From Acidobacteriota bacterium (GTDB lineage Bacteria; Acidobacteriota; Thermoanaerobaculia; Gp7-AA8): a DNA stretch of 64,000 nt. Location of the stretch: contig QHVT01000013.1 in the NCBI GenBank assembly GCA_003223645.1, forward strand, positions 1 to 64,000, read 5' to 3'. Both the position numbers and the translations under genes were made by a program. A model generated the notes under the pieces. The model ran no database searches. It was not told the origin of the DNA and saw only the letters and a program-made list of their open reading frames with translations. Shown one piece after another: positions 3,991-50,560 of the stretch. The number at the start of each line of letters is the position of its first letter. Positions within the stretch are counted from its first letter, which is position 1.

Positions 3991-3996
3991 GGCCCT

Positions 3997-4037
3997 AGTT
4001 TATCCCGCGCCTAGACGCGGGATCTCCGGGATAAACT
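3997..4037 (-). terminator. intergenic hairpin with two alternative stems
   Basis: Between the YfiR-like gene and the sortilin-like gene, AGTTTATCCCG pairs with CGGGATAAACT (11 bp, outer stem). TCCCGCG pairs with CGCGGGA inside it (7 bp). The two stems share bases, so they are mutually exclusive. It may terminate or attenuate read-through from the upstream operon. No U-run is present, so the role is inferred from position only. Confidence 0.45.
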
Positions 4038-4591: not shown

Positions 4592-4595
4592 CGGT

Positions 4596-25256: not shown

Positions 25257-25372
25257 CTCTTCCTCCGAATGTCAGGCCTGCGCCATAAGGATACGCGGAC
25301 GCATGAGAAAAATCCTCGCCCGCGGTCTGCCTGCCAGAGTTGCATGCGTTCTTCGGTGCCATGATTGAGAAC

Positions 25373-25850: not shown

Positions 25851-25980
25851 ACTGCTCACAGCTGCAGCGCTTCCAGTGCCGCCCATCTGCTCATCCAACG
25901 TCCTGTCTGCCAGCCAGCGTCGCGGAGCCAATGCTTCGCCTCTCGTTGTGCGTGATGTGCGGTGCATCAGCTAACGAAAG

Positions 25981-26172
25981 ATGCCGGTCCCGCTTATACT
26001 CGCCCCTCCGATCGGGGGCGACTTGGCCTATCGCATACGCACGCGCGATCAACACTTCGACAAGGACGGCGAGCCGAAACGGATACTCGCCCTCGACGGC
26101 GGCGGGCTGGGCGGCATGTTCACCCTCGGAATCCTCCGGCAGATCGAGATTTCCCCTTCGCGTTCGACCTGA
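25981..26172 (+). pseudogene. truncated patatin-like phospholipase
   Basis: 63 codons. The sequence RILALDGGGLGGMFTLGILR is the start of a patatin domain, with the DGGGxxG oxyanion-hole loop and a hydrophobic helix. Normal patatins run for at least 250 more residues and include the GxSxG nucleophile and DGG motif, all absent. After RQIE the sequence becomes unrelated (ISPSRST, stop) and leads straight into the 3' end of the giant RHS gene. The 3' portion has therefore been deleted or replaced, consistent with rearrangement at this border. A product, if made, would not be an enzyme. Confidence 0.75.
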
Positions 26173-26252
26173 AGTGAGCCATGGCCTCGTCTTGACCGCT
26201 CTGCCTGCCCGTTCTCCAAAGGCCGGCGCTGACGCGCCGGCCTTTCCTCGCT

Positions 26253-29200
26253 CTACAGCGGCACTCCGGAGAATGTCGACAGCATCACGGCCTCGGCGAC
26301 CTCGTCCTGCACGGCTCCGATCACGTATTGCACGATGAGCCGCGGGGCGGACTGGAGCAACAGCTCGAGTTGTACCGAGACCGTGCCGCCGCCCTCGATC
26401 ACCGTCACCGCTTCGGCGGTGGTCTCGCCCGCGACCTCGACCGCGAGCTCTTCTCCGGCGAAGAGCTCTTCGTTCTCCTCGATTGCCCTCACCGCGTCCC
26501 GCAGATCCTGCAGCCAGCTTTTCGAGTAGAGCACCGTTCCGGCCGGCGTGATCGGCGGGGCGATGATGTGGCAGCCGAGCTCCGGCTCGAGGTTGTACCA
26601 CGGGAACGTGTCCTGGCCGAGTCGCCACGCGCCGGACACCGGGACGCCGTTGGTCTCGATCGGAGACGTGGCGAGGCCGACGGCGTAGGCGACCGCCTGG
26701 ACGCGGGCCAGGATCACCGATGCGAGCGGTTTGATCTCGTAGACGTCGCCATAGGTGTACTCGCGCAGATCGGGACGGAGGCCGATCTCCATCAATACGT
26801 TCCACGCTCTGTCCAGCCCGCGGATGGCGCGGTCATACGCCGCCGTACCATTTTCGAAGTAGGTCCGTGGGAAGCCTTGGTTCGGACGGCGGCCGAGCTC
26901 CGTGACGAAGTAGTCGCCGAACCTGGCGATGTAGATCTTGCCGCAGAACTTGTGCACGGCCATGCCGGTCATGGCGTCGGCGAGATCGTGCCCGGTCGGA
27001 TCGATATTGTTGACCGGATCGTTCTCCGTGTAGGCGTACTGGTTCCGCGACTGAGACCGGTCCAATGTGCCGAAGCGGCTGTCGCGCTGCAGGAACCGGC
27101 CGATCCCCGGTGAGTAGTAGCGGCTGCGGAGGAAGTAGAGACCGGTCTCGGCGTCCTGCTGTTCGCCGGCGAAACGGAACGGATTGGGGGTGCTGCCGGT
27201 CGACGCCGCCAGCGTACCGAACGCGGTGTAGTCGTACCGGTCGGTGACGTTGCCGCCGGCGTCGACGAGCATGCGCACCGAGCCGAGAGCGTCAGTGACG
27301 TAGTAATAGTCACCGCCGTTCCGGGTCATGGTGGAGACGCCTGCTGCGCCGTATGCGTACGTCGCCGCCACGTGGCCGGATCCGTCGGTCTCCGCCACCA
27401 CCGTGGCCAGGTTGCCGGAGGTGTCGAGGACGTAATTGGTGACGTTGCCGGCGGCATCGGTCGAGCGCACGCGGTCGTTGTTCGCGTCGTAGTCGTACGT
27501 CAGGGCGCCGCCGGAACTGAACGCGATGCGCTCGAGCCGGCCGCGCACGTCGTACTCGTAGGAGGTCGTGGTCGAGCCTTGCGTCGCGCTCTTGACGTTC
27601 CCGGCCTCGTCGTACTCATACGAATGTTGCCCGTCACTGGCGAGCAACGCGCCGTTGTACGCATAGGGCTGGGTCCCCGCGGCTGCGCTGTCGGAGACGG
27701 ACGTGCGGTTGCCGGCGGCGTCGTACGCGTAGCCGATCGTCCGCACGGCGCTGCCGCCGGCGTCTTTGTAGGTCTCGGTCAAGAGCCGGCCGAGATCGTC
27801 GTAGCCGTATCCGACCGATGAACCGTCCTGCCGCGTGACTTTGCTGATTCTGCCGGAGCCGAGATGCTCATACGTCTCGGCGAACAACACGGTGCCGGTC
27901 GCGGAGACCGCGCGCACTGCCGTCAACTCCTCATGCGTTCCGTACTCGCGCGTGGCCACCATTCCGTTTGGATAGGTGATGCTGGTCAGCTTGCTGTCGT
28001 GATCGTAGCCGTACTTCGTCTCGCGGCCCCGCCCGTCGGTCATCTTGGTCATCCGTCCGGCGCCGTCGTAGTCGTACGAAGTCGTGCCCGCCGGCGAACT
28101 GACGGACGTGATGTGGCCCGATGCGTCGTAGGTGTACTGCAGCTCCGGACCGGCGCTGCGGTGGACCGCGGTGATGTGGCCGAGGAGGTCGTAGTCGTAA
28201 TCGAGGTTGCCTGCGGCATCGGTGAGCACATCGGGCCGGCCGGACGGGGTGTAGGTTCTGGACAGGCTGGTGCCGTCGTCGAACGTCGTCTTCACCGGCC
28301 GCTCGGACGGATCGGAGTCGGTGGTGACGAGGTGGCCGTCGCGGCGGCGAACCTGCTGCACCACCTGCTCGGCGGAGTAGGTGAACGTCTCGTAGGAGCC
28401 GTCCGGATACGTGCGCTTCACGAGGCGATCGGACGAGTCGTACTCGAATCGGAACGTGTCCTGCGACGGACCGACGATCGACGTGAGGTTGCCGTCCTCG
28501 TCGTAGGTGTAGGTCGTGGCGGAGCCGTCCGGCTCGGTGGTCTTGCCGAGGCGGCCGGCGACGTCGTACTCGTACTTCGTGACGTGTCCGCCGCTGTCGC
28601 GCCGGGTGGCCGGCTGGCCGCGCCAGTTGTAGGTGAGCTCCTCGTACCTTCCGTCCGCCGCGGTCACGCGGAGGACGCGGCCGTAGGCGTCGTACGTGCG
28701 CGTCGTGGTGTGCGACTCCGGATCGGTGACGGTGGTCATGTTGCCGACGTCGTCGTATCCGAACTGCGTCCGCTCTCCGGCGCCGTCGGTTCGCGACTCC
28801 TGCTCGCCGCTGGCCGTGTAGGTGGTTTTCGAAGTGTAGCCGCGCGCGTCGGTCTCGTTGGTCATGCGGCCGAGCGCATCATTCGTGTAGGTGCTGGTGA
28901 GACCGCCGATGGTCACGCCCGTGACCTGATCGTGGTCGTCGAGGGCGAGCGAGCCGGAGGCGGCGCCGGTGTTGGTCGTTCCGACGACGTTGTCGTTGGC
29001 GTCGTAGGCCACGCCGAACTGCGATCCATCGGTCATCGTGCTGGTGGTCGGCAGGCCGCGCGTGTTGAGCGTCGACTCGCCGCGCCCGCCGAAGGCATTG
29101 GTCACGGCGTTCATCTGTCCGGCGGCGTCGTATCCGAACTGCCACTTGTCACCGTCGGGAGCGGTGGTCTGGGTCTTCCGGCCCGCGTCGTCGTAGCCGA

Positions 29201-32200
29201 CCGACACCGCGCCGCCGCGCGGCAACGTCGTCGAGGTACGGCGGCCAAGGTCGTCATAGGTGTGGAGGGTGGTGTGCTGGGCCTCGTCGGTGACGGCGAC
29301 CGCGCGCCCCTTGGTGTCGTAGATGAGCGAGACATGGGTGCCGTCGGGATTCTTCACGTCGGTGATGTTTCCCTGGCTGTCGCGCGTGTACACGGTGCGA
29401 TCGCCGTCCGGAGTGACGAGCGCCAAGACGTTCCCCAATCCGTCGTATTCGCGGGTGATGGTGTGATGGCCGGCGTCGGTGCGTGTGGTGATCTCGTTCC
29501 ACTGGTTGTACGTCATCGTGGTCACGTGACCGGCCGCATCGCGGACCGTCAGGAGATTGCCGCGAGCGTCATAGGTCATCGTCTTCGTCTGCCCAAGGAC
29601 GTTCGTATGGGTCAGCATGTGGCCCTCGGCGTCATACGTGGCGGAGACGCCCTTCCCGTCGGGGTCGACGATGGAGAGGATGTTGCCGCTGCCGTCGTAC
29701 GTGTAGACGCGTACGTGTCCCTTGCGGTCGGTGTTCACCTGATGGTGGGCGTCGAGGTCGTAGCTCATGGTCAGGCGGTGACCGTCGCCGTCGGTGACGG
29801 CGATGACGCGGCCGCTTTCGTCGTATTCCGTCTTGGCGGCGTGACGTCCCGCCGAATCGAAGTAGTCGACGAGGTCGTGGCGGTCGTCGTACGTGAAACG
29901 GGTGGTCTCGCCGACCTGGTTCGTGACCGTGGCGAGGTCGCCGTGCGCGTCGTAGGAGTAGTTGATGTAATTGCCCGCGGGATCCGTCACCGTGCCGATG
30001 CGCCCCTGCGCATCGCGGGTGAAACCGACGGACAGGCCGGTGGAGCTGGTGACGCCGTTGGCGCTGAAAGTCAGCTTGTTGCCGTTGCGGTCGCGGACGG
30101 ACTGCACCCCTCCCGTCTCATCGACCTCGTACACGTATCCGTGCTCGGTGGTCAGGCGGAAGCGCGTGGGATTGAAGACCGAGCCGTCGGAGGTGAGCAG
30201 TTGCACGTTCCCGGGCTTGCTGCCGTCGACGACGACCGTCTGCTCGCCGACGACCTGCAGCGTGCCGTGGCGCGAGCCGACCGGCTGGAAGACGACGTCC
30301 GCCGCGTCGATGGACGCCAGCGCCTGGCAGGCCGGCGACGTCGCCATCCGGAAGCGGTAGACGTGGTCGCCGGGCAGGGTGACGGTGACGAAGCGCGAGA
30401 GCGTCGGGGTGAGGCAGTACTGGCGATCGAAGACGGCTCCGGTGAGCGTCTCCTGCCATCCGGTGCCGAGCACGCCGCTCTTCTCGACGTGCCCGCGGTC
30501 GTAGGAGAGCGTCCAGCCGTAGCCGAAGTCGCCGACACGCTTGTCGCGGCTGTCGTAGGTGCGAGTGACGTCGAGCTCGAGGCCCGCCACCGGCACGACG
30601 AGGTCGTGGAACTCGAGCGAGAACAGACCCGGCTTGAGGTGTCCTTCCACGCTCACGGCGATGGAGGTGCCGATGCTGTCGCCCGCGCTGTTGGTCGCGG
30701 AGAGCCGGATCTTGTACGTGCCGTTCACCAGCGTGGTCGGATCGAACGTACCGAGGGGCGCGTCCGTCACCGATGTCGTGCCGGTGGCGATCGTCATCCA
30801 GGGGTTGTTCGCCGCCGCTTGATCGTTGGCGTTGAGACGGTACTCCAGACGCCAGCTCGCCGCGTTGGCGATGGTGCCGCGCACCACCGTCCGGTCGGTG
30901 ATGACCGCGCCGTCGGCCGGAGACGTAATCTCCACTGACGGCGGCGGAGACGCCGGATTCACCGTAATCGTGACGTCATCGCTCGCCGAGAGCGCGCTGT
31001 CCGTCGCCGTAATGCGCACGACATACGTTCCTTCCGCGGAGAAGGTCGCCGTAGTGGTCGTCGAAGTGGACGACGCGAACGTCACCTCGCCGGGGCCGCT
31101 GACTTTCGTCCAGCTCACGGTCACCGGCGCGGGCTGGCCGTCATCGGCGACGGTTGCGCTGAGGGTGACTTGGTTGTTCGGAAGGTAGATCGTCTGATCG
31201 GCGCCGGCGTTGACGGTGGGCGCCTGGTTGGGGAGGGGATCGGCGAGCGTGACGACGACGTCGTCGGAAGACGTCAGCACGCCGTCGGAGACGGTGAGGC
31301 GGAAGGTGTAATTGCCGACGGTGGTGTTCGTGCCGAACGCGATCGCCGTCGTCAGGGTGTGGCGTGACTGGATGAGCGACTGGGTCGTGCAGTTCGTGCA
31401 CGTCCAGAGGTACGACACGGGTCCGGCGGCGGGAGCGCCGTCGTCGGTGTAGGAGCCGGTGAGCGTCGCCGTAAATGTCGGTTTGTTGATCGTGCGATCG
31501 GCGCCGGCGTTGGCGACCGGCGCGGTGTTCGTGCCGCGATCGATCGTCACTTCGTTGGAGATGGCGGTCGTGCCGGCGGCAGTCGACGTCGCCTGCAGCA
31601 CGTCGCCGCCGGAGTGGACGCCGGTGTACTGGAACGTCACATGACCGCCGGCATCGGTCGTACCGTGCAGCGTCTGTGCGTTTGCACCTGTAATGCGGAG
31701 GTCGACCGGCAGGGATGCGATCGGCGCGCCCGCAGCGTCGAACGCGCGCACGTCGACGCTCTTCGTCGATCCGGCCGGCTGTGCGTCGAACTTGTACGGC
31801 GACATGGCGAGCGAGATCGTCGGCGGAATGATGCGATCGCCGGCCGCCGACGTGGTGCCCATCGTCAGTGCGAGTCCTTGTACGCAGCATTCCGCGTAGT
31901 CGACTTCGAATGGGTAGCTGCCCGGCGCGGGGAAATGAACCGTCACGAGACGCGGCTGATCGGCGCCGGTGCCGGTGTTGTACGCACCCGCAAGCGGATA
32001 GCCCTCGAATCCCGTGACGCCGGACGCGGGCGGGTTGAAATTCACGCCGCTGACGCGCGATGCGCCCTTGCCGACGCCGAACACGAACCCGTCATCCGCC
32101 CAGAACTTGAAGGTGATGTCCCCCGCGGAGGCGACATTGAGCGAGCCGGTGAAGACGCCGTTGAAGTCCTGGAGGTAGTCGTAACCGAGCGAGGCGCCGT

Positions 32201-35200
32201 TGCCGCGAGGAATGATGATGCCGGTGAAATTGCCGTCGACATCCGTCGTCACGTCGACCATCGGCCGATTGAGGACGTCGACGCCGGAGACGTTGCCCGG
32301 CACGGTGCCTGCCGGCGGATTCAGATTCAGCGTCGGAAGGTTCTGCTCGAAGATCAATGGTTGATCCGGAGCTGCATTGAATCCGCCGCTGCCATTGGAG
32401 GTGAAGAAGCGCGCGCGGATCGTCGTCGCGGAGATCGTCTGCTTCGGTACGACCCACGTCACCGCCGCGGGATTGGAAGTGATGACCGCCGCCGTGCCGG
32501 CCGTGGCGACGACGGTGTCATTGCCGGCAGTGGAGCCGGTGTACGTGAAGAATGCGGCACCGGTCGTGTCGGTGACGGTCGAGAACGTCCGGCCGTTGGC
32601 GCCTTCGATGCTGAAGGTGACGGTCTCGCCGAACAGCGCATTGCTGCCGGAGTCGGTGAGCACGGCCTTCATCGTCTGCGTTGCGCCAACGACGTTCGGT
32701 CCGGCGGCGCCCGGTGTCAGCGCCAAGGTGCCGATGAACGCGTGCACGGCGACGGTGTCGCTCGTAGACAGCGCGCCGTCGTTCGCGGTGAGCTTCACGA
32801 CGTAATCGCCGGCGACGCTGAACGTTGCCTTCGTCGATTGCGCGGTGCCGGCCGCGAACGTGACGTCGCCCGGTCCGCTGACCTTGGTCCAGGTGATCGA
32901 CAGCGTGCTGCCGGAGGGGAGTCCGTCGTCCTGGACCGTGCCGTTGAGATTGGCGCTCGATTGCGCGTTGACGAAGTGAACGTCGGCGCCGGCATCGACG
33001 ACCGGCGCCTTGTTGATCGGAGCCGGCGTCACGGTGATGACGACGTCGTCGGTCCCGTCGAACTGCGTGTCGTTGACGGTCAGGCGGAGGATGTACGTGC
33101 CTGCCGCGGGGAAGGTCGCCGTGGTAATCGCTGCGTGCGCATCGGCAAACGCCGCGACGGCGCCATTCGGTCCGTTCACGGTCGTCCAGGTCGCGGTGAG
33201 CGTGCTGCCGGCGGGTAGTCCGTCATCCATCGAAATGCCGTGCAGCGAGGCGCTGGTCGACGGATACACGATCGTTTGATCCGCGCCCGCGTCGACGACC
33301 GGGGCGTGGTTGCCTTCACTGACGCGCACGACGACGTCGTCGGTCGCGGTCAGCGCGCCGTCGTTCGCGGTCAAACGGAGCGTGTAATCGCCGGGGACGA
33401 TGAACCGCGCCTGTGAGATCGCCGATGCGCTTGGATTGAAGCTGATCTGCGCCGGACCGCTGACCTGGGTCCAGCCGACGGTCGGAACGCCGTCGATCGG
33501 CAGGCCGTCGTCGTTCACGCTGCCGGTGAGAGTCGCCGCGACGCCGATCGGTCCGATGTCGCCGAGTCCGGCCGGCGCGAAGGTGACGTGCTCCCAATGC
33601 TGGGTCTGGGCGACGAGGACTTTCTGGAACGCCGCGCCGTCCCACCAGACGTGATACATCTGGCCGGTCTCGGCGACGATGATGAAGTCTCCGATCCAGT
33701 TGCCGAACGCCGCCGCCGGCGCGCCCAGCACCAGTGAACGGTCATAGTCGATGCCGAAGAAGTTCTCATTGGCCGGAATGAGGTCGATGTCTTCCGGTGC
33801 GATGCCGAGGGAATGGCTCGCCACTTTGCCCTGGGGATCGATCGAGTAAATGAGCGTCTGGTCTTCCGCGCCGGCGATGATCTTGCCGGCCCACGGTCCA
33901 TAACGCGGGTCATTGGGAACGGTGGTCACGCCCTCGAGGTGCGTATTGACGCGCGCGAGCTGCGTCGCCTGCCCCGCGGCGTTGATGCGCCATACGCCGC
34001 CCGCGGTCGTGACGACGACGAGATCGCCGCCGAACACGCCGGTGCGGTCGATATAAAGACTGCCGCGCATCAGACCGGTCTCGCCGGGCAAGGTGACCCA
34101 CGGGTTCTGCACGACCTTGCCGTCGGGCGAGATGCGGATGACGACGCCGGGCGCGCCGGAGCCGGAGAAGAGCTCGCCCGGCTGGAAGCCGCCGCGGCTC
34201 ATGCCGTTGCCCTCGTCGCGCGCGGTGGCGATTTTCAATTCATCGGTGAGGCCGGAGACGCTGGAGAAGTTCGTGCGCGTTCCGTCCGCGTCGATGAGCG
34301 CGAAGTTCGACGGCACGCCGGTCGGGTAGTCGACGGAGAAGACGACTTTGTTCGTCGGCTGGTGATAGTCGATGCCGATCGGACGGGAGCTGCTGCCAAT
34401 GGTGTGCAACGACAGCGGCGGAACCGGCGGCACCGGCGGCACGCTGACGAAAAGATCGGGTCCCGCATTGACGACCGGCGGGAGGTTGACGATGTCGGCG
34501 TCGACGGTGATGGTGACGTCGTCACTCGTCGCGTACTGCTGGTCGTTTGCGGTGAGGCGCAGTACGTATGTGCCGCGCGTGTCGAAGCTGACGCTCGTCG
34601 TGCGCGTGGCAGGTGTATCGAAGCGCACTTTCCCCGGGCCGCTGACCTTCGACCAGAGGACCGCTGGTCCGGCCGGCGGAATGCCGTCGTCGGTGACGGT
34701 GCCGGTGAGCGTCGTCTTCGCGGCGGTGATCGTCTGATCGGGTCCCGCATCGACCACCGGCGCGACGTTGGCCACATGACAGATCGCGCCTTCGACGTTG
34801 ACGAGCGTGGCGAGGAGGTCGCTGTAACTGCGGGCGATGTAGAAGTCGGAGGACGACGAAGCGAGCGCACGGAGGTTGTTCTCCATGTTCGTGTCGACGC
34901 CGCCGACGTACACGACGACGAGGCGCGTGGCGGTCGCCTTGAGGTTCGTTGCCGCGGCAGGCGCGAGCGTGTTGTAGCTCGCGCCGTCGGTGATGACGAC
35001 CGCGATCGGAACGGCGAGACCGGAGTGGCGCGAACTGGTGAGCTCCGTGCGCGCGGAGTCGAGCGCGGCGCTGATCAAGCCGCTGCCGTAGATCGTGAAG
35101 CCGTCGATCGCCTTGCGCGCGGCCTCGTAGTCGCTCGTCAGCGTTTGCAGCATGCGCGGCGGATTGCCGTAGCCGATGATTGAGATCTGGTCGCCGTTGC

Positions 35201-38200
35201 GTCGCGCGTCGCTGAACGCGATCTCCGCCAGCTCGAGCTGATTGAGCTGCATCGAGGTGCGGCTGCGAACGAGATCGGTCGCGACGACGACGTCGAGCTT
35301 CTGTGTCGCGGCCGGGCAGGTGACGGTGAACGAGAGCGAGCTCGCGTCATAGAGCGTGTTGCCGGCAAACGATGCGGAGATGGCCGGATTCGTCGACGAG
35401 CCGGTGTACACGAGGCTCGCGACGGCTTCGCCGGTCGCGCTCGTGACCGCGCTCGCGGTCTGGCCGCCGACGTTGAAGACGACGGTCTCGTTGGCGATGC
35501 GCTCGTGGGTGATGCCTTCGCGCAGCAGCGCCTTCAGCGCGATCGGCTGATTGATCGTGACGGCGCGCTCGCCTTCATACGAAACGAGCGACGGGCGGCG
35601 GGTGACGGTGGTGCGGACGACGTCGCTCGACGCGCCGCCGTCCTTGTCGGTGACGGTGACGTGCGCGTCGTAGGTGCCGGGTGTGGCGTAGCTGTGCTTC
35701 GGCGCGGCCGCCGTGGAGCAGTTCGGCACGTCTAGCGTCGCGCCGTCCCCAAAGTCCCATGTACAGCGGATGGTCGGACGATCGCTCACGCTCACGTCGC
35801 TGAACGACGGCTGCACGCCCCAGTCGAGTCCCCACGCAACCGTGAGATCCGGACCGGCGTTCGCTGTCGGCGGTACGTTCGCAATCGTCACCGGCTTCGT
35901 CACCGTCGCCGTGATGCCGCGTCCGTTCGTGATCGTGTGCGTGACGTTGTAGATGCCGTTGTCGGCCCACGCGTGGCTCGCGGCCGCGGCGTAGATGTTG
36001 TCGTTCGTGTTGTCGCCCCACGACCAGTTGCTGGACGTGAAGAGGCCGAAGTTGTTCGTCGAGGCGTCGGTGAATCCGACCTGCGCGACTTCGTTCCCGA
36101 TCGTCGGCGACCAGGTGAAGTCGGCCGCCGGCGCGCCGACGATGTGGTACGGCATCGTGCGGCGGCTGGTCTGTCCGCCGGCGTCGGTGATGGTGAGCGA
36201 GACGTCGTAGGTGCCGGGCTGCGCGTACGTGTGCTGCGGATCGCGCTCGCTGCTCGTCGCGCCGTCGCCGAAGTCCCACGCGTAGGAGACAATGTTCGCG
36301 CCCGCGGTCGACGACATATCGACGAAGCGCGTCTCCTGCGTGCCGAACTGCGGCGAGAACGCCCATGCCGAGAGGAGTTGGAACTCACCCGCGCCCGCGT
36401 AGTTGTTGCGCAGCACGAAGCGGACGTAGCGCGCCAGCGCCGGCTTGAAGGTGAAGTACTGGATCGTGTGATCCGGCTGCAGAGCGCCGGTGAACACGGT
36501 CTGATACGACGCGTCGCTGCCGTCGCCGGCCGAGACCTGAATGTCGAACTGGCGGACCATTGCGCCGTCGCACGGCGTGCCGCAGTCGGTGCGGCCGAGG
36601 AGTGCGACCCGGTCGATGCGCCAGACGGCGCCGTTGGGAAGCGCGACGCCGATGACTTCCGGAATCGCGTGCGTGGTGCCGCTCAGCCAGAGACCGTTGC
36701 TGACGTCGGCGTCGAGGAGCTGATTCGGTAAATAGGAAGTCGTGATGCCGTCGGTGATGCCGAGCGGCGCAGCGCCGTCTTCGGTCATCGTCAGGAGATT
36801 CATCTCGGTGATGCTGATGACCGAGCCGTAGCCGGACTTCCATAGGAGCTTGACGTACTTCGCCTCGAACGTGCGGCCGAAGTAGAAGTCGCGCTGATTG
36901 AGGTTGACCGTGCCGCTGTAGGCGAGCGTGAACGCCGCGTCGTCCGGCGTCGTCGTGGAGACGAGGACGTCGTAGTCCTTCGGCGCGGAGCTCGAGCTGA
37001 GGAAGTCGAAGTGCATGCCGTACAGCAGGCGCGCCGCGTTGTCCGGCATCGCGAACGTCAGCGACGGTTGCGCCGACGTGTTGGCGCTCCAGCTGTTGTT
37101 CGTGCCGTCGGTGGCGAGCTGCGGGAACGCGCCGCCGTTGAACGCGGAGCCGGCGATGACGCCGCCCGGCGGTGCCGGCAGCAGGACGTCGAAGAGACCG
37201 GTGACGATGTTGACGCGCGCCGGATCGGAGTTCGACAGCGGGACGTACTTCACGTAGCGCGCGCTCACCGCGCCGCCGGGGAAGGAGAAGTCCTGCATCG
37301 CCGTGTTCGGCGGCATCGTGGTGGTCAACACGTTGACGAACGCCGATGGATCGGTCGTCGTGGAGGAGACCCACACTTCGAAGTTGCGGATCTGATCGGT
37401 GCCGTTGATCGAGCTGCTCCACGGGCCGACGCGGACGCCGCTGATGGTCTGCGGATCCGTGCCGCCGAGCTGAATGACGGCGAATTGATTCGTGCGCGCC
37501 GGCGTGATCCACGGCGGGCCTTCGATGTAGTCGAGCAGCACGTCGGGACTGCCGCCGCTGGAGGCGACGATCTTCGCGCCGTTCGCTGCCTGTCCCGGCG
37601 ACTGATTGCGGATGGCGATCGATGCCAGCGGCGCGGAGATGAGGTTGCCCTCGCTGCGCGCGGTGCGGATCTCGAACATCGAGACCTGGATCGACGGCCC
37701 GCCGTAGTTGTTCTTCGCGAGGAGCTTCACGTACTTCGCGCGCACCGGGCCGCCGGGGAAGACGAATTCGTGCGGGCGGAAGTCGTTGACGAGCGTGCCG
37801 CTGACGACCGTGGTGAATGCGGCGTCGTCGTCGGTCGTGTTGGAGGCGAGGATGTCGAAGTCCTTCAGCGACTCCGCGGCGCTCGTCAGCGACATCAACG
37901 CGACGCGATCGATCGGCGCCGGATCGGCGTCGTCGAGCCGGACGACGACACTCTCGTTCACCGTGTGGCCGCTCTGCGTGTACCAGCCGGTCTGGTTGTT
38001 GTTGTCGAACATCCACTCCGGCCGTTCCCAGATGTTGTCGTAGTTGCTGACCGACGAGCGGGAGCCCGCCGGCGGCACGAGGCGGAGCTCGACGATGACC
38101 GAGGAGCCGCTCGCGCCGTAGTTGCTGGCGGCGACGAACTTCACGACGCCGGCGGAGATCGGACCGTTCGGGAAGACGATGTCCTGGTAGCCGTTGGCGG

Positions 38201-41200
38201 CGGTGCCGATGAGCGTCGCGGTTGCGGCGACGGTGAACGGACCGGCCGCGGTATCCGCGACTTCGATGCGGACGTCTTTCACCGCGGAAGTCCCTTCGCC
38301 GTTGAGCACCTGCACGCGATCGATGAGCGCGTGCTGCGGAAGCTGGAGCGTGAAGTACGCGCCGCTCGTTGCCGCCCCCCACCAGTAGGTCGTCGTGTTC
38401 TCGTCGATGGCCAGCGACGGATTGCGCACCCAGGTGGAGGAGTCGATGACCGTCGCGCCCTCGCGCGAGGAGGCGAGGTTGTTCGGATAGACGTAGTGCG
38501 CGATGCCGGCGAGGCCGGTGCCGATCACTTCGATGTCGCGGATGGAGGCGCCGGTGCCGCCGTAGTTGTCGACCGCGACGAGGCGCACGTAGCGCGCTTC
38601 GACCGGCGCGCTGAAGGGGAACTCCTGAATGCGGTCGTGGTACGCCGCGACGTCGGTGAGGACGGTCGTGAACGCGGCGTCGTCGGCGGTCGTCGCCGAC
38701 ACCTGCACGCGGAAGTTGCGGATGCCTTCGTTCGACTGATTGAAGTTGAGGATGCGGACGCGATCGATCGTACGCGGGCCGCTGCCGGCGAGTGCGATGG
38801 TCAACGACTGATTCGCGACCTGTCCGTTTGCGGTGCGCCAGCGGCTGTAGGGGTTGTGATCGATCGCGAAGAGCGCCGGGCCGGTGTTGGTGTCGAGCTG
38901 GCTCGTGAACGCGGCGACGTTGGCGCCGTCGCCGAAGTAGGCGACGTCGTTGTGGAAGCGCGCGACGTTGCGGCGATTGCCGGCGGTGGTGAAGTCGGCG
39001 ACCGGGATGTGCCCGACGTGGATCGTGACGTCGTCGCTGCCGCTCAGCGCGGAGTCGCTGACGGTGAGGCGGAGGACGTACGTTCCGACGGCGGTGAAGG
39101 TCGCGGTGGTCGTCGCCGCCGACGCGTTGCTGAAGGTGACGCCGGGCGCGTTGCCGGCGACGGACCATTGATAGGTGAGCGCGCTGCCGGCGGGGAGGCC
39201 GTCGTCGGTCGCGCTGCCGGCGAGGATCGCCGGCTGTGAGAAGTCGATCGATTGATCGGCGCCGGCGTTGACGACCGGCGCGGCATTCCCGGGATTCACG
39301 ACGACCGTCATGTCCGCGCTCGCCGAGAGCTCGCCGTCGGATGCGGTGAGGCGGAGGACGTACGTGCCGGCGAGTGTGAATGTGGCCGTCGTCGCCGCTG
39401 CTGCCGGCGTCGCGAAGGTGACGTCGGCCGGACCGCTGACCTTCGTCCACGCGTACGTGAGCGGCGACGGCACGCCGTCGTCGGTCGCGGTTCCCTGCAG
39501 CGTGGCGGCGGCCGGCAGGGTGATGGTCTGATTCGCGCCGGCGCTGACCACCGGTGCGGTGTTGGCTGGAAGCACCGTGACGGTCAGCTCGTCGCTGGCC
39601 TGCAGCTTCGAGTCGTTGGCGGTGATGCGGAGAACGTACGTGCCCGGCGCATTGAACGTGGCGATCGTGCTCGCGGCATGCGGATCGGCGAACGTCACGC
39701 CGGCGGGGCCGCTCCAGGTGATCGCGAGTTGCGCGCCGGATGGACGGCCGTCGTCGTTGACGGTGGCGGAGAGTGCCGCGGTCTTCGGCAGGCGGATCGT
39801 CTGATCCGCACCGGCGTTGACGGCCGGTGCCTGATTCGGATCGCGAACGTCGATGACGACGTCGTCGGAGGTGGTGAGCGTGCCGTCGGTGGCGGTGAGG
39901 CGAAGCGTGTAAAGACCGGCCGCCGCGAAGGTCGCAGTCGTTGCGGCGGCGTGCGGGTCTGCGAAGACGACGGATGATGGACCGCTCCAGGTGATCGCGA
40001 GCTGCGATCCGCGCGGATAGCCGTCGTCGGTCGCGGTTCCCGCGAGCGTCGCGGCCGCGGGGAGCTCGACGATCTGATCGGCGCCGGCGTTGACGACCGG
40101 CGCGGCATTCTGCGGATCTACGGTGATGACGACTTCGTCGAACGCCGTGAGCGTTCCGTCGGTGGCGGTTAGACGGAGCGTGTACGTGCCTGCTGCGGCA
40201 AACGTGGCGGTCGTTATCGACGCATGCGCGTCCGTGAACGTCACGCCGGATGGGCCGCTCCACGTGACGCCGAGCTGCGATCCGCGTGGATAGTTGTCGT
40301 CGGTGGCCGTGCCTGCGAGCGTCGCGGTGGCCGGGAGCGCGATGGTTTGATCGGCGCCGGCGTTGACGACGGGCGCGGCATTCTGCGGATCGACGGTGAT
40401 GACGACTTCGTCAAACGCGGTGAGCGTTCCGTCGGTGGCGGTTAGACGGAGCGTGTACGTGCCTGCTGCGGCAAACGTGGCGGTCGTTGTCGTCGCATGC
40501 GCGGCCGTGAACGTCACGCCGGATGGGCCGCTCCACGTGACACTGAGCTGCGATCCGCGCGGATAGCCGTCGTCGGTCGCGGTGCCTGCGAGTGTGGCAG
40601 TGGTTGGCAACGCGATGGCCTGATCGGCGCCGGCGTTGACGACCGGCGAGGCATTCTGCGGATCGACGGTGATCACGACTTCGTCGAACGTGGTGAGCGC
40701 GTCGTCGGTGGCCGTAAGCCGGAGTGTGTACGTGCCCGCCGCGGCGAACGTGGCGATGGTCGTCGTCGCGTGCGCGTCGGCGAACGTCACACCGGCGGGG
40801 CCGCTCCACGTGACGCCCAGCTGCGATCCGCGTGGATAGCCGTCGTCAGTGGCTGTTCCCGCGAGCGTCGCGGTCGCGGGCAGTGCGATGGTCTGATCGG
40901 CGCCGGCGTTGACGACCGGCGCGGTGTTCGGCGGATCGACGGTGATCGTCACGTCGTCCGCCGACGCCAGGAGAGTGTCGCTCGCGGTCAGCCGCAGCAC
41001 GTACGTGCCGGGAGCGGTGAACGTGACCGCAGGCGAGAGGGAGTGCACGTCGGAGAACGCGACGTCCGCCGGTCCGCTGACGCGGCTCCACGTCGTGGCG
41101 AGCGTGCTGCCGTTCGGGAGACCGTCGTCGGTCGCCGCGCCGTGCAGCGTCAGCGAATCGGGGAGCACCACCCACGCGTCGGCGCCCGCATCGGCAACCG

Positions 41201-43079
41201 GCGGACGGTTCACGGGCGGGGGAGGAATGTCGGTGTCGGTGAGCTGCAGGGTGCCGCTGAGATCGAGACGATCGCAGGACAACGTGCCGCGCAGACGGCC
41301 GCCGCCGTCGATCGTCACGGTCGACTGCGGCGCGCGAACGATGGCGTAGAGCACGCTCTTGCCTTCGATGCGCAGCGCTCCGCCGGCCAGCCGAACGATG
41401 AGCTGCCGCGGCGACTCCGCTGCGCCGATGGTCGAGCCGGTGAGCGTCGCGCCGTTGTTGAGCGTGAGGACGACCGGACCGGCGATGCGCAGGTCGCTGC
41501 CGCCGCTGAGCGTCAGCGAGTCGAGCTCGTACTCGGCCGGCGTCGTCGCTCCGGCCGTGCCGAAGATGAATGTCGTGCGCCCGCTCGCGGAAAAGCGGCC
41601 GTAGCGTCCCGGCGGCACGGTCACCGGAGCGGCCTTGCCGGAAATGGTCAGGTCGCGCAGCGTGGCGAAGTCGCCCGCCGTATCCGTGGCCGTGGTGAGG
41701 ACGGCGTCGCGCGTGTTGGTGGTAGGAGTGAATGCCGCGACGGCGCCGAGGGACATCGCGTCGGTGCGGGTGATGAGATGGCCGAGCGTCGAGCTGCCGG
41801 TGATGGTGACGGCGTGCGTGGACGGCGTGCGCTCGCCGGCTCCTTCGATGGTGCCGCCGAATGTTGGATTGCCGCTGACTGTCACCTGCGGCGTGCCGGG
41901 CACGAGGAGGTCGGAAGTGATGGCGTCGTTGCCGTCGAGCGTCACGCTCTCCGGCGCGAGTTGCCACAGTGCGCCCTCGACGCGGCCGCTGCTGAGAAGC
42001 GGCGCGTGACGGACGACGGCGATCCGGTCGTACGGCTTTTTCGCGCTCTTGATCTCCGAGAGGGCGGCCGGCGAGAAGACGATCTGTTGCCACTGCGACA
42101 CGCGCGCGACTTCGGTGGACTCGAAGGACGTGCCGTTCCAATGGATGCGCTGCAGGATTCCGGGCGAAGCCTGGGCGACGAGCACGTCGCCGATGACGTC
42201 CGCGAACGCGTCGGCGGGCGCGCCCCACACCTTTCGGTCGGCGCTGTCGATCCCGAAGAAGTTCTCGTGCGGCGTGACGACGGCGAGATCGCGCGCCACG
42301 ATGCTGTTCTGTTGCGGAGTGACGGTGCCGGCCGCGGTGACGGCGTAGAGCACCGGCTGCTGCGCGGCGCCGGCGACGATGCAGCCAGCCCACGGACCGT
42401 GACGGTCCGGATCATTGGCCAGCGTGACGACCGAGCCGAGGGGAACGCCGATCGAGGCGACGCGTGTCGCCGTCGACGAGGCGTTGATGCGCCACACGTT
42501 TCCGGCGGCGGTGACGGCGATGACGTCGCCGCCGAACGCGCCGGTGCGATCGACGGTCAGCGCGGTGATCGTCGTCTCGCCGGCCAGCGTCGCCCAGACG
42601 CTCTGCACAGTGGCACCGTCGGCGGAAACGCGAACGATCTCATTCCCCGCCGCGGCGAAAAGCTCGCCGGCGCGGAAAGCGCCGTCGCCTCGTGCCGTGG
42701 CAATCCGCGCGCTGCTGGCCACGCCGTTCGCGGATGAGAACGGGCGGTGCGTGCCGTCGGCGGCGATCAACTCGAAGTCGTGGCCGGCGGCATCGGAGGC
42801 GATGGCCAGCTCGTTCGTCGGCTCATACGCGGCGATGCCGCTGATGCCGTCGAAGCCGGTCGTCAGCGCATTCAGGACGACGCTGTACGTCGGGGACGAG
42901 GCTGTCGCCGCGAGGCGACCGAGTGCTTGCGGCGTCCTCGGCGGCGGCGTCTGTGCGGCCGCCGGGACGGCGAAGCCGCCGGCGACGAGCAACTGCAGCA
43001 GAAGTAAATAGGCCGTGACGGCAGCGGTGAAGCGGCGGGCGGAGGACACACGTGGCACAGCGGGGAAACCCGTTCTCAT
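26253..43079 (-). CDS. giant RHS-repeat surface protein (5,608 aa) with candidate nuclease C-terminus
   Basis: One uninterrupted frame; AAGGTGAT precedes the ATG. Approximate order: signal/hydrophobic segment 1-43; propeller-like module 48-375; beta-rich region 385-615; eight Ig/PKD-like repeats 621-1356; six discoidin (F5/8-C-like) modules 1375-2240; three PKD domains 2245-2480; Ig-like; vWA-like domain 2590-2765 (LDVVVATDLVRSRTSM, VVITDGAS); PKD; second copy of the propeller module 2887-3175; more PKD/Ig; PA14-like domain 3546-3760; RHS entry region from 4145; dozens of YD repeats to 5250; RHS core with RSRYYSPGIGRFLQRDS at about 5317-5333 and DPTG shortly after; variable C-terminus 5345-5608. 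RHS barrels usually encapsulate and release a C-terminal toxin; here residues 5432-5450 (LRPDLREYTYGDVYEIKP) suggest a PD-(D/E)XK nuclease. No immunity gene follows. It lies 186 bp behind a LytTR operon on the same strand. Alternatively it is an adhesin without toxin activity. Confidence 0.93.
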   Translation of the reverse strand: MRTGFPAVPRVSSARRFTAAVTAYLLLLQLLVAGGFAVPAAAQTPPPRTPQALGRLAATASSPTYSVVLNALTTGFDGISGIAAYEPTNELAIASDAAGHDFELIAADGTHRPFSSANGVASSARIATARGDGAFRAGELFAAAGNEIVRVSADGATVQSVWATLAGETTITALTVDRTGAFGGDVIAVTAAGNVWRINASSTATRVASIGVPLGSVVTLANDPDRHGPWAGCIVAGAAQQPVLYAVTAAGTVTPQQNSIVARDLAVVTPHENFFGIDSADRKVWGAPADAFADVIGDVLVAQASPGILQRIHWNGTSFESTEVARVSQWQQIVFSPAALSEIKSAKKPYDRIAVVRHAPLLSSGRVEGALWQLAPESVTLDGNDAITSDLLVPGTPQVTVSGNPTFGGTIEGAGERTPSTHAVTITGSSTLGHLITRTDAMSLGAVAAFTPTTNTRDAVLTTATDTAGDFATLRDLTISGKAAPVTVPPGRYGRFSASGRTTFIFGTAGATTPAEYELDSLTLSGGSDLRIAGPVVLTLNNGATLTGSTIGAAESPRQLIVRLAGGALRIEGKSVLYAIVRAPQSTVTIDGGGRLRGTLSCDRLDLSGTLQLTDTDIPPPPVNRPPVADAGADAWVVLPDSLTLHGAATDDGLPNGSTLATTWSRVSGPADVAFSDVHSLSPAVTFTAPGTYVLRLTASDTLLASADDVTITVDPPNTAPVVNAGADQTIALPATATLAGTATDDGYPRGSQLGVTWSGPAGVTFADAHATTTIATFAAAGTYTLRLTATDDALTTFDEVVITVDPQNASPVVNAGADQAIALPTTATLAGTATDDGYPRGSQLSVTWSGPSGVTFTAAHATTTTATFAAAGTYTLRLTATDGTLTAFDEVVITVDPQNAAPVVNAGADQTIALPATATLAGTATDDNYPRGSQLGVTWSGPSGVTFTDAHASITTATFAAAGTYTLRLTATDGTLTAFDEVVITVDPQNAAPVVNAGADQIVELPAAATLAGTATDDGYPRGSQLAITWSGPSSVVFADPHAAATTATFAAAGLYTLRLTATDGTLTTSDDVVIDVRDPNQAPAVNAGADQTIRLPKTAALSATVNDDGRPSGAQLAITWSGPAGVTFADPHAASTIATFNAPGTYVLRITANDSKLQASDELTVTVLPANTAPVVSAGANQTITLPAAATLQGTATDDGVPSPLTYAWTKVSGPADVTFATPAAAATTATFTLAGTYVLRLTASDGELSASADMTVVVNPGNAAPVVNAGADQSIDFSQPAILAGSATDDGLPAGSALTYQWSVAGNAPGVTFSNASAATTTATFTAVGTYVLRLTVSDSALSGSDDVTIHVGHIPVADFTTAGNRRNVARFHNDVAYFGDGANVAAFTSQLDTNTGPALFAIDHNPYSRWRTANGQVANQSLTIALAGSGPRTIDRVRILNFNQSNEGIRNFRVQVSATTADDAAFTTVLTDVAAYHDRIQEFPFSAPVEARYVRLVAVDNYGGTGASIRDIEVIGTGLAGIAHYVYPNNLASSREGATVIDSSTWVRNPSLAIDENTTTYWWGAATSGAYFTLQLPQHALIDRVQVLNGEGTSAVKDVRIEVADTAAGPFTVAATATLIGTAANGYQDIVFPNGPISAGVVKFVAASNYGASGSSVIVELRLVPPAGSRSSVSNYDNIWERPEWMFDNNNQTGWYTQSGHTVNESVVVRLDDADPAPIDRVALMSLTSAAESLKDFDILASNTTDDDAAFTTVVSGTLVNDFRPHEFVFPGGPVRAKYVKLLAKNNYGGPSIQVSMFEIRTARSEGNLISAPLASIAIRNQSPGQAANGAKIVASSGGSPDVLLDYIEGPPWITPARTNQFAVIQLGGTDPQTISGVRVGPWSSSINGTDQIRNFEVWVSSTTTDPSAFVNVLTTTMPPNTAMQDFSFPGGAVSARYVKYVPLSNSDPARVNIVTGLFDVLLPAPPGGVIAGSAFNGGAFPQLATDGTNNSWSANTSAQPSLTFAMPDNAARLLYGMHFDFLSSSSAPKDYDVLVSTTTPDDAAFTLAYSGTVNLNQRDFYFGRTFEAKYVKLLWKSGYGSVISITEMNLLTMTEDGAAPLGITDGITTSYLPNQLLDADVSNGLWLSGTTHAIPEVIGVALPNGAVWRIDRVALLGRTDCGTPCDGAMVRQFDIQVSAGDGSDASYQTVFTGALQPDHTIQYFTFKPALARYVRFVLRNNYAGAGEFQLLSAWAFSPQFGTQETRFVDMSSTAGANIVSYAWDFGDGATSSERDPQHTYAQPGTYDVSLTITDAGGQTSRRTMPYHIVGAPAADFTWSPTIGNEVAQVGFTDASTNNFGLFTSSNWSWGDNTNDNIYAAAASHAWADNGIYNVTHTITNGRGITATVTKPVTIANVPPTANAGPDLTVAWGLDWGVQPSFSDVSVSDRPTIRCTWDFGDGATLDVPNCSTAAAPKHSYATPGTYDAHVTVTDKDGGASSDVVRTTVTRRPSLVSYEGERAVTINQPIALKALLREGITHERIANETVVFNVGGQTASAVTSATGEAVASLVYTGSSTNPAISASFAGNTLYDASSLSFTVTCPAATQKLDVVVATDLVRSRTSMQLNQLELAEIAFSDARRNGDQISIIGYGNPPRMLQTLTSDYEAARKAIDGFTIYGSGLISAALDSARTELTSSRHSGLAVPIAVVITDGASYNTLAPAAATNLKATATRLVVVYVGGVDTNMENNLRALASSSSDFYIARSYSDLLATLVNVEGAICHVANVAPVVDAGPDQTITAAKTTLTGTVTDDGIPPAGPAVLWSKVSGPGKVRFDTPATRTTSVSFDTRGTYVLRLTANDQQYATSDDVTITVDADIVNLPPVVNAGPDLFVSVPPVPPVPPLSLHTIGSSSRPIGIDYHQPTNKVVFSVDYPTGVPSNFALIDADGTRTNFSSVSGLTDELKIATARDEGNGMSRGGFQPGELFSGSGAPGVVIRISPDGKVVQNPWVTLPGETGLMRGSLYIDRTGVFGGDLVVVTTAGGVWRINAAGQATQLARVNTHLEGVTTVPNDPRYGPWAGKIIAGAEDQTLIYSIDPQGKVASHSLGIAPEDIDLIPANENFFGIDYDRSLVLGAPAAAFGNWIGDFIIVAETGQMYHVWWDGAAFQKVLVAQTQHWEHVTFAPAGLGDIGPIGVAATLTGSVNDDGLPIDGVPTVGWTQVSGPAQISFNPSASAISQARFIVPGDYTLRLTANDGALTATDDVVVRVSEGNHAPVVDAGADQTIVYPSTSASLHGISMDDGLPAGSTLTATWTTVNGPNGAVAAFADAHAAITTATFPAAGTYILRLTVNDTQFDGTDDVVITVTPAPINKAPVVDAGADVHFVNAQSSANLNGTVQDDGLPSGSTLSITWTKVSGPGDVTFAAGTAQSTKATFSVAGDYVVKLTANDGALSTSDTVAVHAFIGTLALTPGAAGPNVVGATQTMKAVLTDSGSNALFGETVTFSIEGANGRTFSTVTDTTGAAFFTYTGSTAGNDTVVATAGTAAVITSNPAAVTWVVPKQTISATTIRARFFTSNGSGGFNAAPDQPLIFEQNLPTLNLNPPAGTVPGNVSGVDVLNRPMVDVTTDVDGNFTGIIIPRGNGASLGYDYLQDFNGVFTGSLNVASAGDITFKFWADDGFVFGVGKGASRVSGVNFNPPASGVTGFEGYPLAGAYNTGTGADQPRLVTVHFPAPGSYPFEVDYAECCVQGLALTMGTTSAAGDRIIPPTISLAMSPYKFDAQPAGSTKSVDVRAFDAAGAPIASLPVDLRITGANAQTLHGTTDAGGHVTFQYTGVHSGGDVLQATSTAAGTTAISNEVTIDRGTNTAPVANAGADRTINKPTFTATLTGSYTDDGAPAAGPVSYLWTCTNCTTQSLIQSRHTLTTAIAFGTNTTVGNYTFRLTVSDGVLTSSDDVVVTLADPLPNQAPTVNAGADQTIYLPNNQVTLSATVADDGQPAPVTVSWTKVSGPGEVTFASSTSTTTTATFSAEGTYVVRITATDSALSASDDVTITVNPASPPPSVEITSPADGAVITDRTVVRGTIANAASWRLEYRLNANDQAAANNPWMTIATGTTSVTDAPLGTFDPTTLVNGTYKIRLSATNSAGDSIGTSIAVSVEGHLKPGLFSLEFHDLVVPVAGLELDVTRTYDSRDKRVGDFGYGWTLSYDRGHVEKSGVLGTGWQETLTGAVFDRQYCLTPTLSRFVTVTLPGDHVYRFRMATSPACQALASIDAADVVFQPVGSRHGTLQVVGEQTVVVDGSKPGNVQLLTSDGSVFNPTRFRLTTEHGYVYEVDETGGVQSVRDRNGNKLTFSANGVTSSTGLSVGFTRDAQGRIGTVTDPAGNYINYSYDAHGDLATVTNQVGETTRFTYDDRHDLVDYFDSAGRHAAKTEYDESGRVIAVTDGDGHRLTMSYDLDAHHQVNTDRKGHVRVYTYDGSGNILSIVDPDGKGVSATYDAEGHMLTHTNVLGQTKTMTYDARGNLLTVRDAAGHVTTMTYNQWNEITTRTDAGHHTITREYDGLGNVLALVTPDGDRTVYTRDSQGNITDVKNPDGTHVSLIYDTKGRAVAVTDEAQHTTLHTYDDLGRRTSTTLPRGGAVSVGYDDAGRKTQTTAPDGDKWQFGYDAAGQMNAVTNAFGGRGESTLNTRGLPTTSTMTDGSQFGVAYDANDNVVGTTNTGAASGSLALDDHDQVTGVTIGGLTSTYTNDALGRMTNETDARGYTSKTTYTASGEQESRTDGAGERTQFGYDDVGNMTTVTDPESHTTTRTYDAYGRVLRVTAADGRYEELTYNWRGQPATRRDSGGHVTKYEYDVAGRLGKTTEPDGSATTYTYDEDGNLTSIVGPSQDTFRFEYDSSDRLVKRTYPDGSYETFTYSAEQVVQQVRRRDGHLVTTDSDPSERPVKTTFDDGTSLSRTYTPSGRPDVLTDAAGNLDYDYDLLGHITAVHRSAGPELQYTYDASGHITSVSSPAGTTSYDYDGAGRMTKMTDGRGRETKYGYDHDSKLTSITYPNGMVATREYGTHEELTAVRAVSATGTVLFAETYEHLGSGRISKVTRQDGSSVGYGYDDLGRLLTETYKDAGGSAVRTIGYAYDAAGNRTSVSDSAAAGTQPYAYNGALLASDGQHSYEYDEAGNVKSATQGSTTTSYEYDVRGRLERIAFSSGGALTYDYDANNDRVRSTDAAGNVTNYVLDTSGNLATVVAETDGSGHVAATYAYGAAGVSTMTRNGGDYYYVTDALGSVRMLVDAGGNVTDRYDYTAFGTLAASTGSTPNPFRFAGEQQDAETGLYFLRSRYYSPGIGRFLQRDSRFGTLDRSQSRNQYAYTENDPVNNIDPTGHDLADAMTGMAVHKFCGKIYIARFGDYFVTELGRRPNQGFPRTYFENGTAAYDRAIRGLDRAWNVLMEIGLRPDLREYTYGDVYEIKPLASVILARVQAVAYAVGLATSPIETNGVPVSGAWRLGQDTFPWYNLEPELGCHIIAPPITPAGTVLYSKSWLQDLRDAVRAIEENEELFAGEELAVEVAGETTAEAVTVIEGGGTVSVQLELLLQSAPRLIVQYVIGAVQDEVAEAVMLSTFSGVPL
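39835..41199 (-). repeat. five tandem 273-bp coding repeats in the giant gene
   Basis: Equivalent positions recur at exactly 273-bp steps (39835, 40108, 40381, 40654, 40927), each unit being 91 codons and one PKD/Ig-like domain (VVNAGADQTIALPATATLAG...). The units starting at 40108 and 40381 differ at very few bases over their first 100 nt, including synonymous sites. This points to recent duplication or gene conversion. Confidence 0.8.
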
Positions 43080-43265: not shown

Positions 43266-44006
43266 TCACAGTTTCTGGCCGAGAAAACTCTCGAGACGAT
43301 CGCGGTAACTCGGTCCAAGCGAAACGGACGCGTCGTTTTGAAGAACGATCGAGAAGCCGCCGTCCTCGGCGGTCACGAGCTTCTTCACCTTCTCGATGTT
43401 CACGATCCCGCTGCGGTGCACGCGCACGAATATGTTGGGGTCGAGTTGCGACTCGAGTTTCTGCAGCGAGTCGCGGATGAGGAACGACTCCGCGCCGGTG
43501 TACAAGCGCGCGTAGTTCCCTTCCGCCCCGATCCATTGGATGGTCTCGGCCTTGATCAGGATCACTTGTCCACGTACGCGGACTGCGAATCGCTCGCGAT
43601 GCCGTGACGGAGCCGCAGGCTCGGGCTCCGGCTCGTTTCCAGGCGCGAGAAAACGCCGCGCGCGCTCCAGCGCACGGTCGAATCGCTCGTGCGAGAACGG
43701 CTTTACCAGATAGTCGACCGCATTCGCTTCGAACGCGTCCAGCGCGAACTCCTCGTGCGCGGTGATGAAGATGACGGCAGGGCGCTGTGCCGCGCCGAGC
43801 GCGCCGAGTGCCGCGAAGGCACCGACGCGGGGCATGTCGACGTCGAGGAAGAGGAGGTCGGGCGCGAGATGCGGCGCCATGAGGATGACTTCCTCGCCGT
43901 CGGCGCATTCGCCGGCGATCTCGACGTCGCGGTGCCGCTCCAGAAAGAGCCGCACTCTCTGGCGGGCCAGCGGTTCGTCGTCAACGATCAAAGCACGAAT
44001 GGACAT
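43266..44006 (-). CDS. LytTR-family response regulator
   Basis: 246 residues. The receiver domain is at about 1-120 (ALIVDDEPLARQRVRLFLER, LLFLDVDMPRVGAF with the phospho-acceptor Asp, VIFITAHEEFALDAF, DYLVKPFSHERF). The LytTR DNA-binding domain is at about 140-246 (FAVRVRGQVILIKAETIQWI, IGAEGNYARLYTG, LIRDSLQKLESQLDPNIFVR, VHRSGIVNIEKVKKL). Such regulators pair with LytS/AlgZ-type kinases, which lie just upstream. The ATG is 5 bp after the pseudokinase stop. The next gene downstream on this strand is the giant RHS gene, whose 186-bp leader is the nearest possible target; no LytTR site could be assigned with confidence. Confidence 0.92.
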   Translation of the reverse strand: MSIRALIVDDEPLARQRVRLFLERHRDVEIAGECADGEEVILMAPHLAPDLLFLDVDMPRVGAFAALGALGAAQRPAVIFITAHEEFALDAFEANAVDYLVKPFSHERFDRALERARRFLAPGNEPEPEPAAPSRHRERFAVRVRGQVILIKAETIQWIGAEGNYARLYTGAESFLIRDSLQKLESQLDPNIFVRVHRSGIVNIEKVKKLVTAEDGGFSIVLQNDASVSLGPSYRDRLESFLGQKL

Positions 44007-50474: not shown

Positions 50475-50560
50475 TCCTCCACCTCCCGGCGACTGCGATT
50501 CGTTACGGGCTGCAAAAAGAGAACCCACATCGGGAATGGCCGCGCTCTAGAATCCAACCA

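Follow-up and report, generated by a model that had tools for sequence, protein, structure and literature searches.

A 5,608-residue, putatively exported RHS protein with a PKD-nested propeller and numerous candidate binding modules in an Acidobacteriota bacterium

The window, i.e., the whole stretch of DNA analysed here (64,000 nucleotides of contig QHVT01000013.1, assembly GCA_003223645.1, from an Acidobacteriota bacterium), carries a giant open reading frame on the minus strand, preceded by regulatory genes and followed by a terminator-like hairpin (Table 1). An earlier note, which gave no strand, had proposed a single 16.8-kb gene at this locus, and the frame matches that proposal to the nucleotide. 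It runs without an internal stop across all 5,608 codons, with a codon-position GC of ~0.6/0.5/0.88 in each of the 19 sampled 900-nt blocks; because this signal is uniform, the frame is attributable neither to chance nor to a frame artefact. From the N-terminus, the encoded protein comprises a putative signal sequence, propeller 1 (six-bladed), eight PKD, six discoidin, and three PKD domains, an Ig domain, a vWA domain, and a further PKD domain; thereafter come propeller 2 inside a PKD domain, PKD, Ig, PA14-like, and Ig/PKD domains, the RHS/YD shell with its core, and a 244-aa C-terminus. Hits to Pfam and NCBIfam models fall in the order PKD (x8), discoidin (x6), PKD (x3), vWA, PKD, PKD/Ig, DUF6531, RHS repeats (x26), and core.

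Table 1. Features of the giant gene, its product, and its immediate surroundings (window positions; residues numbered from the N-terminus of the giant protein).
Feature	Coordinates	Strand	Residues	Evidence
Two LytS-type histidine kinases	44012..46125	-		PF06580 twice
LytTR response regulator, ending 186 nt ahead of giant gene	43266..44006	-		PF00072 + PF04397
Single ORF, giant RHS protein, putatively exported	26253..43079	-	5,608 aa	ATG at 43079, stop at 26253
Putative signal sequence (basic n-region, hydrophobic h-region 20-38, ...PAAAQ)	42951..43079	-	1-43	Hydropathy
Beta-propeller 1	42000..42932	-	~50-360	42-44% identical to propeller 2
DUF7305/bactofilin-like beta region, weak	41253..41495	-	529-609	PF23981 5.8e-4 + PF04519 0.11, both below cut-off
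Eight PKD domains	39015..41204	-	626-1355	Pfam + local PKD profile
Six discoidin (F5/8 type C) domains	36390..39008	-	~1358-2230	PF00754 5.6e-51, six stretches
Three PKD domains, first two partly from Pfam	35607..36362	-	~2240-2491	PKD_4/PKD + local profile
Putative Ig-like domain, Big-type	35316..35594	-	~2496-2588	Sequence pattern only
vWA domain	34779..35312	-	~2590-2767	PF00092 2.1e-9, PF13519 3e-8
PKD domain	34500..34763	-	2773-2860	Pfam + local PKD profile
PKD domain split by propeller 2	33321..34487	-	2865-3253	PKD halves either side, AF2, same layout in L020
Beta-propeller 2, six-bladed	33555..34427	-	~2885-3175	AF2 + VIA-align
Two PKD domains	32742..33305	-	3259-3446	Pfam, AF2, local PKD profile
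Ig-like domain, Big_1 type	32436..32741	-		PF02369, two stretches in piece, below cut-off
Divergent PA14-like domain	31824..32435	-	3549-3752	hhalign vs PA14 of related genomes
Ig-like domain, Big_1 type	31536..31811	-		PF02369, below cut-off
Two PKD domains	30957..31523	-	3853-4041	Pfam + local PKD profile
Big_7-like domain ahead of RHS region	30705..30941	-	4047-4125	PF17957 0.0042, below cut-off
RHS/YD shell: DUF6531 + 26 RHS repeats	27000..30644	-	4146-5360	PF05593 2.9e-104, PF20148 7e-7, TIGR01643 5e-88
RHS-associated core motif	26988..27230	-	5284-5364	TIGR03696 1.2e-22, over cut-off
Orphan C-terminal domain, candidate toxin (LRPD...YEIKP motif)	26256..26987	-	5365-5608 (244 aa)	No family hit
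Terminator-like hairpin, 12 bp stem, ~10 nt past stop, short U run only	26218..26245	-		MFE -26.2 kcal/mol, z -4.1

By hydropathy, residues 20-38 form the sole strong hydrophobic segment of the giant protein, consistent with a Sec-type signal and thus with probable export via Sec; no membrane anchor, lipobox, or sorting signal was identified in the protein. Both propellers read in the earlier note are present and homologous to each other. The AlphaFold2 (AF2) model of the propeller-2 region, built with 14 sequences, is confident (pLDDT mostly 85-96) and displays 24 strands arranged as six blades of four. Its best VIA-align row (Z 21.3, rmsd 2.6, 225 aligned residues) is closely followed in rank by six-bladed propellers of the SMP-30/NHL/YWTD type; the rows are confined almost entirely to the propeller, at model residues 21-307. 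This propeller is nested: the first strand of a PKD domain (NLPPVVNAGPDLFVSVP) precedes it and the remainder (VAATLTGSVNDDG...) follows it. Both PKD halves lie at the same place round the propeller of another Acidobacteriota protein, from Centralia_MAG_166 (L020), and the second half is likewise found in a gp7 AA11 locus (L014). The propeller family occurs at 18 loci in the searched collections (Acidobacteriota, Verrucomicrobia, one planctomycete, and others) and in 10 of 396 Acidobacteriota genomes, part of the latter being weak matches; no Pfam model for it was found in Pfam scans, nor did the propeller regions match any PDB sequence.

Between and beyond the propellers, the predicted complement of about 20 Ig/PKD domains is realized as ~17 PKD and ~4 Big-type Ig domains (Pfam plus a local PKD profile), with the position of the Big_7-like domain conserved in L020, L014, and a Leptolyngbya protein (L064). 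The six discoidin modules and the vWA domain anticipated from visible motifs were likewise recovered by Pfam (Table 1). For the PA14 module the outcome is mixed, as the corresponding region gave no Pfam hit, no PDB sequence match, and an AF2 pLDDT < 50, yet a divergent PA14 domain is backed by profile-profile comparison. When a query profile of ten PA14 domains from related genomes was aligned with the window sequence paired with its gp7 AA11 counterpart (L024), hhalign returned P 7.4e-6, and both homologues outranked 1000 shuffled copies; with the same profile, discoidin and PKD controls gave P 0.58 and 0.03, respectively. This supports assignment of residues 3549-3752 as a probable PA14-like domain. 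Discoidin, PA14, vWA, and propeller families usually function in binding, and membership in these families suggests such a role for the modules here.

The RHS cage is supported by 26 YD repeats, DUF6531, and the Rhs-associated core, all detected by Pfam and NCBIfam; judged by its YD repeats and core, the giant protein is assigned to the RHS/YD-repeat proteins. The RHS shell is an established fold in YD/RHS families, and known RHS structures lead us to expect that it closes round the tail here. In the three relatives retaining a C-terminus (L064, L065, and L050), RHS homology to the giant protein ends at residues 5363-5368, just past the DPxG core motif, and other RHS genes of the same genome encode tails unrelated to that of the giant. 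Because homology stops right after the core, the tails are exchangeable, as in polymorphic toxins; the homologues have the shell in common and differ in the C-terminal domain behind it.

The tail itself is an orphan. No homologue was found in 101 relatives, 396 Acidobacteriota genomes, plasmids, viral contigs, or PDB sequences, and no Pfam family matched; three weak matches among the 396 genomes were discounted as positioned over unrelated genes. It does carry a motif (GMAVH...GLRPDL...DVYEIKP) with counterparts in the RHS tail of L059 and, by way of L059, in two giant YD proteins of cyanobacteria (L064, L065), a link that is statistically no more than suggestive. The Tox-REase-9 motif has been tabulated as GxxxH, E, D, ELKP (Zhang et al. 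2012, PMC3482391), which the GxxxH ... LRPDL ... VYEIKP pattern resembles. Membership of the tail in Tox-REase-9 (PF15650) was rejected, as no profile match was obtained in this genome (G000) while the same phylum search found a true member in another (G205). Homology of the tail is weak: hhalign gave P 0.002-0.004, a profile search did not separate the tail from shuffles, a pairwise test (picked after the motif had already been seen) gave 3 of 2000 shuffles, and the tail modelled by AF2 alone, i.e., without relatives, reached a pLDDT of 35. The motif is nevertheless suggestive of a PD-(D/E)XK-type nuclease, which we treat as a lead.

As a hairpin follows the stop codon, no downstream gene is clearly co-transcribed with the giant gene, and no candidate immunity gene was found directly downstream. 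The next gene (24714-25256, minus strand) encodes a 180-aa protein without a Pfam hit, from a multicopy family absent from most relatives. It was rejected as an immunity gene, having at least 12 scattered copies in the same genome, while two further genomes of the bacterial family contain 24 and 27. Just upstream of it (25324-25860) lie tandem repeats, degenerate and spaced 63 and 105 nt apart (multiples of 21), in which GACCACAT...ATGTGGTC palindromes occur; some further copies of the gene also have 21-nt-based tandem arrays within the 3 kb covered. A short ORF (25981-26172, plus strand) that converges on the giant gene at its 3' end has a patatin-like GGGxxG stretch (RILALDGGGLGGMF) and appears to be a gene remnant; the patatin identity, read by eye, was dropped as Pfam gives it no support. 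On the other side, the LytTR/LytS genes might, as a guess, regulate the giant gene. Farther upstream (46674-50528, minus strand), a protein of 1,284 aa joins three Big_3_5 Ig domains to Calx-beta and to a hydrolase domain of the BD-FAE/alpha-beta type, i.e., it is a large esterase that is probably exported. Elsewhere in the genome (contig 17 near 37249; L095), a second giant frame of 4,151 aa is exported-looking and Ig-type, with a weak PA14 match and no RHS in the part examined.

Two MAGs provide independent copies of much of the architecture. In gp7 AA11 (G007 contig 249; same family, different genus), the order propeller-PKD-PKD-PKD-Ig-PA14-Ig-PKD...-RHS is that of the window protein; across the locus (L014/L024), propeller-PKD-Ig-PA14-Ig-PKD-Big-RHS is interrupted solely near stretches of masked N. 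In Centralia_MAG_166, a single frame, 5,091 aa or longer, runs off the contig end, encoding CARDB repeats, the PKD-nested propeller, a laminin-G-type lectin, a PKD stack, and RHS. It resembles the window protein in the PKD insertion point of its propeller, PKD stack, Big_7-like piece, and DUF6531/RHS (37-43% identical in shared parts); it differs in having CARDB repeats and the laminin-G-type lectin in place of discoidin, vWA, and PA14, and its C-terminus is lost at the contig end. The giant protein and that of Centralia_MAG_166 thus have in common an unusual conserved propeller-in-PKD unit without a Pfam model, and carry the richest sets of candidate binding modules on one RHS chain among those compared. 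Elsewhere, at L052:410-12280 (minus strand), the gene of a 3,332-aa RHS protein has directly behind it a second RHS gene, of 624 aa, which possesses a core of its own and another tail.

On balance, we favour, with modest confidence, the reading of the giant protein as a polymorphic toxin of the RHS type that a soil Acidobacteriota bacterium exports and displays at its surface, its toxicity being a prediction. The N-terminal signal would send the protein through Sec, with the PKD/Ig domains forming a long stalk. Judging from their families, the propellers, discoidin, vWA, and PA14-like modules would attach to glycans or proteins of a neighbouring cell or other surface. The C-terminal YD repeats would fold as an RHS shell enclosing the post-core tail, which would be the candidate effector, possibly (by its motif) a PD-(D/E)XK-type nuclease. 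The earlier suggestion of a contact-dependent effector or giant adhesin is therefore a fair one, given that binding modules precede the shell, the N-terminus looks Sec-type, and homology ends after DPxG; set against its effector half are an orphan tail with nothing beyond a nuclease-like motif and the lack of an adjacent immunity gene. A bolder version, which we hold to be rather unlikely, is that soil Acidobacteriota and relatives have in common a lineage of giant RHS proteins, exported and organized around the conserved PKD-nested six-bladed propeller, each a self-contained capture-and-kill device that needs no injection machine: the stalk would grip a chosen surface, and contact would make the shell release its nuclease-type tail. 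The propeller, discoidin block, PA14-like domain, and tail are in any case defined pieces with which to ask what the stalk's ligand is and whether the tail is toxic.

The lack of an adjacent immunity gene weakens the toxin reading and makes a pure giant adhesin its main rival. Such a protein, with a surface-adhesin or matrix role and no toxin activity, would attach cells to one another, to fungi, or to polymers in the soil, with the RHS shell and tail as an adhesive or structural end piece. Adhesion modules account for most of the protein mass, the tail is an orphan, and animal teneurins illustrate that a YD shell can serve adhesion (PMC5851990). However, the tail begins exactly at the polymorphic-toxin boundary and carries the acidic/EIKP motif present on other RHS tails; we regard the adhesin as a serious contender, albeit on the doubtful side. 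A predatory or cell-capture fibre akin to the grappling-hook protein GhpA, i.e., a very long self-assembling surface fibre gripping prey, appears improbable. GhpA is of similar length (5,898 aa; PMC13319060) and its base is the top Foldseek row for a 926-aa piece of the giant protein, but at a TM-score of 0.11-0.12 and rmsd of 78 the match reflects stacked Ig-like domains; there is no sign of oligomerization, an RHS shell is not known in GhpA, and with a TM of ~0.1 we rejected it as a relative.

Delivery by an injection machine, as for T6SS- or Tc-type RHS effectors, is very improbable. The RHS core is present and the genome encodes one stand-alone PAAR protein, but the giant has a signal-like N-terminus instead of PAAR/VgrG, Pfam detected neither PAAR nor SpvB/TcdB/TcdA families in it, and the VipB sheath was not found in the 96.7% complete genome. 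It thus has the hallmarks of neither a T6SS PAAR-Rhs effector nor a Tc toxin B/C component, and the N-terminus and missing sheath gene largely refute this alternative. That assembly or frame error fused separate genes is barely credible: repetitive PKD domains are prone to mis-assembly and relatives frequently end at contig breaks (L014, L020), but the coding signal is uniform and stop-free, with the propeller-PKD-PA14-RHS junction recurring in one independent MAG and propeller-PKD-RHS in another. The artefactual join that the earlier note had allowed for was thus not encountered; the N-terminal half, with propeller 1, the eight PKD domains, and the discoidins, lacks a counterpart in the independent MAGs, so the exact PKD number is that of one assembly.

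Compared to known systems, the size of the protein is less exceptional than first proposed; at 5,608 aa it does exceed usual RHS proteins, but relatives with an RHS region measure 5.1-7.5 thousand residues. Among these are cyanobacterial plasmid giants with Ig and YD regions, from Leptolyngbya boryana (NIES2135_66210; 7,046 aa) and Calothrix (NIES4105_109210; 7,546 aa). Their likeness to the window protein consists of (i) a very long Ig stalk, (ii) a Big_7 piece (Leptolyngbya), (iii) an RHS shell with 29-32% identity across 1.3-1.6 thousand residues, and (iv) a tail with CPDI...E[IV]KP. They differ in the types of their Ig domains, in matching neither the propellers nor the discoidins, in an N-terminus that is not signal-like, and in having ABC toxin-export and candidate immunity genes nearby. 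A pair of related genes (204/207 aa, 53% identical) adjoins each giant, and the cyanobacterial immunity candidates had no credible match in the window. On the Leptolyngbya plasmid (L064:8998-38052), several short YD-repeat cassettes, interspersed with small genes, come after the giant and lead up to the ABC toxin-export gene.

Discoidin, RicinB, bulb-lectin, and laminin-G modules have been described in RHS polymorphic toxins with Sec/T2SS-type trafficking (Zhang et al. 2012, PMC3482391). As in those toxins, the window protein joins a (here putative) N-terminal export signal, central adhesion modules and RHS repeats, and a variable post-core domain, and their Tox-REase tails bear D...E[LI]KP motifs; it differs in combining ~21 Ig/PKD domains, six discoidins, two propellers, vWA, and a PA14-like domain within 5,608 aa, in having no adjacent immunity gene, and in a tail outside defined Tox families. 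Bacterial teneurin-like proteins (TLPs), reported in 2026 and including Acidobacteriota members, are Sec-exported and surface-displayed, with variable adhesion domains, toxic tails, no obvious delivery machine, and nearly always a downstream immunity gene (PMC13018210). The window protein has in common with them the variable N-terminal adhesion domains, YD shell, and polymorphic tail, but differs in lacking a downstream immunity gene and any detected teneurin TTR or NHL (Pfam: PF25020/PF25021 absent, and the YD-shell model PF25023 at 45 bits, under the cut-off of 50). Without the superfold of TTR, NHL, and YD-shell in its sequence matches, it is placed outside the TLPs. One Acidobacteriota relative (L050:3029-10609, minus strand) is TLP-like, with TTR (teneurin), NHL, and YD-shell (PF25020 and PF25021 found); its N-terminus is a propeller of the family found in the window protein, and BACON and PKD domains come next. 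A giant exported protein of the PVC superphylum with carbohydrate-binding and Rhs domains, from Ca. Menyafoubacter (PMC12057145), likewise joins binding modules with an RHS toxin-like region, but with beta-helix/lyase modules; this likeness is by description, not sequence. The published surface-displayed RHS/teneurin-like toxins have no known delivery machine. Ultimately, the giant protein is of a kind already known, i.e., the discoidin/lectin RHS toxins and Sec-exported TLPs, within which its size, its module set, and its nested propeller set it apart.
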